The translations under genes were made by a program, and so were the position numbers. The notes under the pieces were generated by a model that searched no databases, had not been told where the DNA came from, and was given only the letters and a program-made list of their open reading frames with translations. A stretch of 64,000 bases of DNA from Nitrosopumilus ureiphilus. Its GTDB lineage: Archaea; Thermoproteota; Nitrososphaeria; Nitrososphaerales; Nitrosopumilaceae. The stretch covers positions 1,385,913 through 1,449,912 of the forward strand of contig NZ_CP026995.1 of the NCBI RefSeq assembly GCF_013407185.1, given 5' to 3'. This document shows, in pieces, positions 25,395 through 26,718 of the stretch; position 1 is the stretch's first letter; each line of letters starts with the position of its first letter.

Positions 25395-25428
25395 AATTTT
25401 CGATACAATTTCTAGTTATTAACACGTT

Positions 25429-25436
25429 CGAATAGT
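25429..25436. repeat. Left target-site duplication of TnpB element
   Basis: The 8-bp sequence CGAATAGT directly abuts the left terminal inverted repeat and is repeated exactly at 26705-26712 abutting the right one. Perfect direct repeats in this position are what staggered-cut DDE transposases leave. Confidence 0.85.
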
Positions 25437-26704
25437 GGTTCTGTGAAGTCATGGAGACCTCGACTTTGATACATCGACTATTCGGATTGCCACATCATTG
25501 TAATTACAACATATGGGTTCCGACATTCGTGAAAAAAGTTCACTTGTCGCTTCACCTGTATCGCCTTTGGCATGGGTAAACCTAGACCACGCCTTGTGGG
25601 CAATGTTCATGGATGCTATTACATCCCTGTCCATGCTCTTGCCACAATTAGTGCACAATAATTTACGTCTGTTTTGTATGTCCTCTTGGATTCTCTTTCC
25701 GCATATCGGACACAACTTGCTTGTGCGTTTCGGGTCAACAAAGACAACTGGGATTCCAACCCACAATGCCTTGTATTGCACCTGTCTTTGCAGTTCATAG
25801 AACTGCCAGCCGTTCAACTTTCCTCTGTATTTTTTACCCTGACCATTTCCCTTTCTGTACAGTTTTCTGATTCCCTTCAAGTCCTCAAAAGCAATTGCAG
25901 ATTTTGTCTCTACTGCATGATTTATAATATCTTTTGAGATTTTGTGGATGAATTGCTTGGTTCTGTTTTGTAGTCTTTGTTGCAGATTCTTGTAGTACTG
26001 TCTCTTCTTTCTGTGATCGTTTCTTTTGAATCCTGCTCTGGCATGAATTGTGTTTTGTTTGATTGAGAGTAACTTGTTTGTCTTGTAGAATGTTACTAGA
26101 CTGTCATTGCCACATGTTACGTTTCTTAAATTCCTGTCAATGCCGACTATCTTGGTACATTCTATCTCTTCAATCTCTTTTGAGATACACAAACTGATGT
26201 TGAAGGCAGTCAGTGAGAATGAACGTACAGTCATGGTTGGGTCTGACAGAATTTTTAGAGTGTGATGATTCAGTAAAATATGGATTGGCTGTCTTGGCTT
26301 GTATGGGATTGATAATAATGAACCGTTAATTTTAATTCCATAGCAGTTTGTCAGGAATTGCTTTCTGACAAATGGTGATTTTGTTTTTCTGCCTCTTTTG
26401 ATTGACTGTTTCATTTGTGAGAGCCTGCCACATGCTTGTGATATGGCGTTTAGTTTGTAGGATGACAAAATATCATATCTGGATAGTTCATGGTATGATA
26501 ACATGGAAAGTCTTTTCAGTGTAGAGCAGTTGTTTTCTAATCCAATTCTGATACAATGGTTTACCATTTTACGGAATGTTTCCATCATGGAATCTAAATC
26601 ATGGTTTTGTGGAACGTTCTGTTTTATTGACTTGATTGTCTTCAACAATTATCATTATTTATTATTTTAATTAAGGTTTCAGGTTTCCATAACTTCACAG
26701 AACC
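25437..26704 (-). mobile_element. TIR/TSD-bounded transposon carrying tnpB (1268 bp)
   Basis: The element is bounded by imperfect 24-bp terminal inverted repeats, 25437-25460 and 26681-26704, which match at 22 of 24 positions and begin GGTTCTGTGAAGT. They are flanked by the exact 8-bp direct repeat CGAATAGT. The only gene inside is tnpB, whose stop codon lies within the left repeat; no transposase is encoded. IS200/IS605 and IS607 elements normally lack such ends, so this looks like a non-autonomous DDE-type unit mobilised in trans that carries tnpB as cargo. Confidence 0.85.
25449..26648 (-). CDS. tnpB: TnpB RNA-guided nuclease family protein
   Basis: This 399-residue protein is a full-length TnpB, the compact RNA-guided nuclease ancestral to Cas12. 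The split RuvC site appears intact: GIDRN (about D171), AFEDLKGI (about E255) and SMDRDVIASMNI (about D340/D342). A four-cysteine zinc ribbon (CPIC and CTNC) lies between the last two. The basic N-terminal half is the wedge/REC-like RNA-binding part. No tnpA transposase adjoins it. In studied TnpB genes the guide RNA covers the 3' end of the gene; here only about 12 bases separate the stop from the element end. Confidence 0.88.
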   Translation of the reverse strand: MLKTIKSIKQNVPQNHDLDSMMETFRKMVNHCIRIGLENNCSTLKRLSMLSYHELSRYDILSSYKLNAISQACGRLSQMKQSIKRGRKTKSPFVRKQFLTNCYGIKINGSLLSIPYKPRQPIHILLNHHTLKILSDPTMTVRSFSLTAFNISLCISKEIEEIECTKIVGIDRNLRNVTCGNDSLVTFYKTNKLLSIKQNTIHARAGFKRNDHRKKRQYYKNLQQRLQNRTKQFIHKISKDIINHAVETKSAIAFEDLKGIRKLYRKGNGQGKKYRGKLNGWQFYELQRQVQYKALWVGIPVVFVDPKRTSKLCPICGKRIQEDIQNRRKLLCTNCGKSMDRDVIASMNIAHKAWSRFTHAKGDTGEATSELFSRMSEPICCNYNDVAIRIVDVSKSRSP

Positions 26705-26712
26705 CGAATAGT
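26705..26712. repeat. Right target-site duplication of TnpB element
   Basis: Exact second copy of CGAATAGT, adjoining the right inverted repeat. It lies just beyond the 3' end of the SWIM-domain gene, so the insertion fell between genes and broke none. Confidence 0.85.
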
Positions 26713-26718
26713 CAATAA

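Follow-up and report, generated by a model that had tools for sequence, protein, structure and literature searches.

A 64,000-nt stretch of the genome of the ammonia-oxidising archaeon Nitrosopumilus ureiphilus (contig NZ_CP026995.1, positions 1,385,913 to 1,449,912; hereafter the window) contains a 1268-bp unit whose sole long gene is tnpB. The unit is bounded by inverted repeats and flanked by an exact 8-bp duplication; the host genome comprises 2.17 Mb on a single contig. An earlier first-pass annotation had described a tnpB cargo apparently moved in trans by some DDE transposase, and had considered that its left repeat might also serve the 3' end of a guide RNA. In window coordinates, the features of the unit are:

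25437-26704, minus strand (tnpB orientation): the whole unit, very probably a non-autonomous IS6-type element with tnpB (from inverted repeats, empty sites and a second copy)
25429-25436, no strand: target duplication copy adjoining the tnpB 3' end, exact CGAATAGT, single in empty sites; predicted first 8 nt of the guide
26705-26712, no strand: target duplication copy adjoining the tnpB 5' end, exact CGAATAGT
25437-25460, plus strand: inverted repeat at the tnpB 3' end, containing the tnpB stop codon and, in the predicted scaffold, the hairpin's 3' arm
26681-26704, minus strand: inverted repeat at the tnpB 5' end, identical in the second copy
25449-26648, minus strand: tnpB, 399 amino acids, TTG start, with RuvC residues and Zn ribbon (from NF040570, PF07282, alignment, and model and fold match)

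Alignment reproduced the imperfect 24-bp inverted repeats of the first-pass annotation (22 of 24 positions matching, 92% complementary), its unit length and its exact flanking 8-mer, and the tnpB stop codon likewise falls within the left repeat, at a distance of 12 nt from the end of the unit. The empty-site comparison that it had called for gave the same boundaries: nine loci of the same genus align without gaps over 170-172 nt to the joined flanks, the best at 93%, and each holds one 8-mer. In 60 Markov shuffles of the region an exact 8-bp duplication was never flanked by more than 15 of 24 repeat matches, compared with the 22 observed. Chance repeats are ruled out as the origin of the unit by these shuffles and the empty sites, and a real insertion with boundaries 25437-26704 is, from the alignments, virtually certain. 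An inverted match of the duplicated 8-mer to 25477-25484 was taken as coincidence, since the other units listed do not show it and its inner copy is part of a conserved scaffold motif.

The gene is apparently intact and has no second gene beside it in the unit, as the first-pass annotation had stated. Its product scores 144 bits against the guided-TnpB model NF040570 (curated cut-off 100) and also matches PF07282; alignment located the RuvC D-E-D residues and the Zn ribbon, and the predicted structure matches Cas12f and TnpB structures. The placement of the stop codon near the end of the unit recurs in many relatives, with 7-27 nt separating the two in many intact copies. The closest named relatives belong to Nitrosopumilales and other Nitrososphaerota, and those found in viral contigs are all distant. 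The genome also contains a second full-length copy with the same ends at G000:C1:1955702-1956969 (G000 being the host genome), which is likewise 1268 bp long and differs by 92 substitutions and no gaps; the first 56 nt and the last 39 nt of the two copies are identical. Since the codon changes comprise 37 synonymous and 36 non-synonymous ones, this balance suggests constraint on the TnpB protein.

The unit is one of a family. A motif-free search, in which loci around tnpB relatives were scanned for any inverted-end pair flanked by a duplicated 8-mer, gave best-scoring units that converged on GGTTCTG-like ends, and a collection scan added Bathyarchaeota, Thermoproteota and Asgard genomes. The resulting set holds 44 distinct archaeal tnpB units with 8-bp duplications, the weakest few of which may be false; save for a few degenerate ones they have GGTTCTG-type ends, and their duplicated 8-mers differ freely. 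A motif-based scan of 139 loci yielded 39 repeat pairs with at least 14 of 20 matches, and 0 in reversed sequence. In a tree the 44-unit family is scattered through a large archaeal TnpB group, and very long branches lead to two other TnpBs of the N. ureiphilus genome, one of which has a right end of IS605 type.

Similar ends recur in transposase-bearing elements. Our transposase survey covered the IS6 family (PF13610 type), and matches were found in 121 of 300 genomes of the order, among them four PF13610-type genes in N. ureiphilus, two of which were tested and score 126-127 bits on the NCBIfam IS6 equivalog NF033587 (cut-off 125). Across the order, 47 IS6-family DDE elements have GGTTCTG-like ends and 8-bp duplications. 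In 34 of the 44 tnpB units the ends agree with an IS6 end at 20 of 24 positions or better (0.1% in shuffled-tail controls); two units match one IS6 end at 24 of 24, and the best match of the window unit, 20 of 24, is in another genome of the genus. IS6 matches also occur in 30 of 49 genomes with tnpB relatives versus 91 of 251 others (p = 0.0014). No tnpB carried within an autonomous IS6 element was detected in the IS6 loci searched. The recurrence of the ends alongside a DDE transposase, a check named in the first-pass annotation, was thus found across the order with IS6 as the family, and the shared ends support its proposal that such an enzyme would have moved the tnpB cargo in trans. The window unit is very probably an IS6-type non-autonomous element.

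The archaeal IS6 elements (L081, L083, L092-L109 and others) measure 1.9-5 kb and carry varied short open reading frames beside the transposase, which has an extra N-terminal zinc-finger-like region. They favour A at -8 and T at -3 on one side only, in the flank adjoining the transposase 3' end; the preference is absent from the other flank. At approximately 1779641-1789795 of G000:C1, the N. ureiphilus genome contains tandem IS6-family units (L017, L019, L197), with the 8-mer TGTTTCGA recurring between neighbours.

At the tnpB 3' end we predict a guide RNA that ends its scaffold at the inverted repeat and continues into the flank, together with a target-adjacent motif (TAM) of the form TTD, where D is A, G or T:

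25437-25556, minus strand: predicted guide-RNA (right-element RNA, reRNA) scaffold, 5' limit approximate (from conserved motifs, folds and covariation)
25456-25461 and 25445-25450: arms of the terminal hairpin of the predicted scaffold
25417-25436, minus strand: predicted guide ACTATTCGAACGTGTTAATA, length assumed to be 20 (from the scaffold end and the TAM position)
26713-26715, minus strand: predicted TAM, reading TTG on the strand of tnpB and lying immediately 5' to the duplication (TTD in 30 of 44 units)

The tnpB 3' ends of the family have common motifs and tend to fold as an outer stem plus a terminal hairpin, and in most folded examples the inverted repeat itself is the 3' arm of that hairpin. 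The 3' repeat pairs better with its own upstream arm (mean 6.37) than with the arms of other units (5.76, standard deviation 0.09, 0 of 20000 shuffles), although these shuffles ignore relatedness and the p-value is optimistic. A mirror test at the tnpB 5' end, which has the same relatedness, gave no signal (p = 0.54), and the test at IS6 3' ends gave a weak one (p = 0.009). Pairing was counted by our own script, the MAFFT alignment of the 3' ends being too gapped for pair counting. Among loci with one surviving end, 54 keep the 3' end and 11 the 5' end, as a guide-RNA scaffold ending at the repeat would predict. An Rfam search with the scaffold returned no match. The co-varying stem supports the guide-RNA role once considered for the left repeat, and we hold with good confidence that the 3' repeat forms part of the predicted scaffold.

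Should the guide start exactly where the element stops, the duplication would supply its first 8 nt, and the TAM would be expected immediately outside the duplication copy that adjoins the tnpB 5' end. On that side TT occupies positions -3 and -2 in 30 of the 44 units and is then always followed by A, G or T; on the opposite side the count is 6 of 44 (p = 3e-7). A TATA-box target was rejected as the main cause of TTD, a TATA-like match being present in 4 of 44 flanks. That the insertion site sets the guide, with TTD as the TAM, appears reasonably likely.

Putting the ends and the predicted RNA together, we consider it likely that an IS6 transposase mobilises the non-autonomous tnpB unit in trans and that TnpB uses the duplication and flank as guide. 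The transposase would act on the unit ends and insert the unit with a stagger of 8 bp. The RNA arising at the 3' end of tnpB would pass through the 3' repeat, which would fold as the terminal stem of the scaffold, so that one DNA end would be common to transposase and guide RNA, and the RNA would then extend into the duplication and flank as the guide. TnpB would recognise the uninterrupted site via the TTD directly 5' of the 8 bp and, given the nuclease activity predicted for it, cut there; cutting would favour retention of the unit, or its spread by recombination, in the manner of a homing endonuclease.

Several observations weigh against this account. No target duplication was found in the flanks of the second copy, which adjoins a second, partial end and may for these reasons have been rearranged. 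Among the IS6 elements found in the N. ureiphilus genome, none has ends like those of the window unit; the transposase scores lie barely above the family cut-off, and 19 of the 49 genomes with tnpB relatives have no IS6 match at the cut-off used. Because IS6 elements transpose replicatively, the part in excision repair that has been proposed for the TnpB of IS605 is not directly transferable. In IS6 elements without tnpB, TT is found in 6 of 36 and 13 of 42 flanks on the two sides, with T at -3 in 29 of 42 on the latter side, and because of this weaker one-sided T bias part of the TAM-like signal may reflect a transposase preference. The same bias, along with an A at -8 as in the tnpB units, speaks for a rival explanation in which tnpB is IS6-mobilised cargo but TTD is transposase target preference alone, TnpB being a passenger whose guide, if any, is unrelated to the insertion site. 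However, T at -2 is stronger in the tnpB units (38 of 44 versus 19 of 40 IS6 elements, p = 0.0002), TT is commoner in them than in IS6 elements without tnpB (30 of 44 versus 13 of 42, p = 0.001), the favoured side is the one required for a TAM and the 3' end has the co-varying RNA stem; we regard the passenger explanation as unlikely. A closer cooperation, in which guided recognition or cutting by TnpB at TTD helps to choose or license IS6 insertion, or drives homing of a copy-in DDE element between strains, is doubtful; equally doubtful is its corollary, an RNA-guided DDE transposase partnership with an origin independent of CRISPR-associated transposons.

The unit might instead have been moved by a transposase of another family, its IS6-like ends being convergent. 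IS1595 and ISL3 also generate 8-bp duplications, the transposases found are longer than classical IS6 enzymes, and their marginal scores and the 19 genomes lacking an IS6 match in a survey limited to IS6 among DDE families could be read in this way. Against it, the unit ends follow the end variants seen in IS6 elements of the order, with up to 24 of 24 positions matching and with equal duplication length, and the bacterial IS6 element ISS1 likewise starts with GGTTCTGT; we judge such an origin very improbable. That tnpB is the hallmark gene of IS200/IS605 and IS607 would favour a unit of these families with chance inverted and direct repeats. Its likelihood is practically negligible in view of the shuffles and gapless empty sites described above and of the same architecture in 44 units, and the genome's own IS605-type TnpBs are no more than distant relatives. 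Membership in these families is excluded because the unit has inverted repeats and an 8-bp duplication; it also lacks a second gene.

To our knowledge, TnpB was previously thought to travel with just two unrelated transposon families. In IS200/IS605 and tnpB-only (IS1341-type) elements the guide RNA of TnpB comes from the 3' end of its gene, as predicted for the window unit, but IS200/IS605 elements use an HUH transposase and hairpin ends and have neither inverted repeats nor duplications. IS607 uses a serine recombinase, also without these repeats or duplications (PMC6188088), and the guide-RNA boundary of its TnpB is adjusted to its transposase (PMC10711439). IS6 elements such as IS26, IS257 and ISS1 have ends starting GGTTCTGT, 8-bp duplications and a PF13610 DDE transposase; the window unit differs in carrying tnpB and no transposase gene, and the archaeal IS6 elements in being larger, with other cargo genes. 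The closest analogue is Fanzor: Fanzor1 and Fanzor2* occur in eukaryotic and viral DNA transposons (PMC10711439, PMC3627910). There too a TnpB-like nuclease gene stands alone in its unit, which has terminal inverted repeats as well as target duplications, and the repeat is predicted to be part of the guide-RNA scaffold. The hosts, in contrast, are eukaryotes and their viruses, the transposases are others, and the duplication is said to belong to the scaffold, whereas the archaeal 8-mers vary freely with a TAM-like motif just outside. The literature searched, with partial coverage, yielded no account of a prokaryotic TnpB carried by IS6 or any other DDE element.

If IS6 mobilisation with an insertion-set guide is correct, the archaeal units would place prokaryotic TnpBs on DDE transposons, in an Asgard genome as well, and a single DNA end would act as transposase site, coding end and guide-RNA stem. 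TnpB might then benefit an element not known to excise, which bears on what TnpB does for its transposon. The archaeal units also make up a large clade of compact nuclease candidates, for which we predict a short TTD TAM.

Two decayed tnpB units of the N. ureiphilus genome (G000:C1:1561778-1562614 and 798542-798825) are fused to the IS605-type right-end sequence GCGAGTGGTAGTTCAC, and these mixed ends suggest recombination or nested insertion between two tnpB element types. At another locus (L038, G271:C103:704-3865), a similar unit of 2045 bp with repeats GGTTCTGTCAAGTTA carries at 761-2704 a 647-amino-acid TnpB whose sequence is interrupted, at its first Zn knuckle, by a domain resembling LAGLIDADG homing endonucleases (PF14528, 2e-8).
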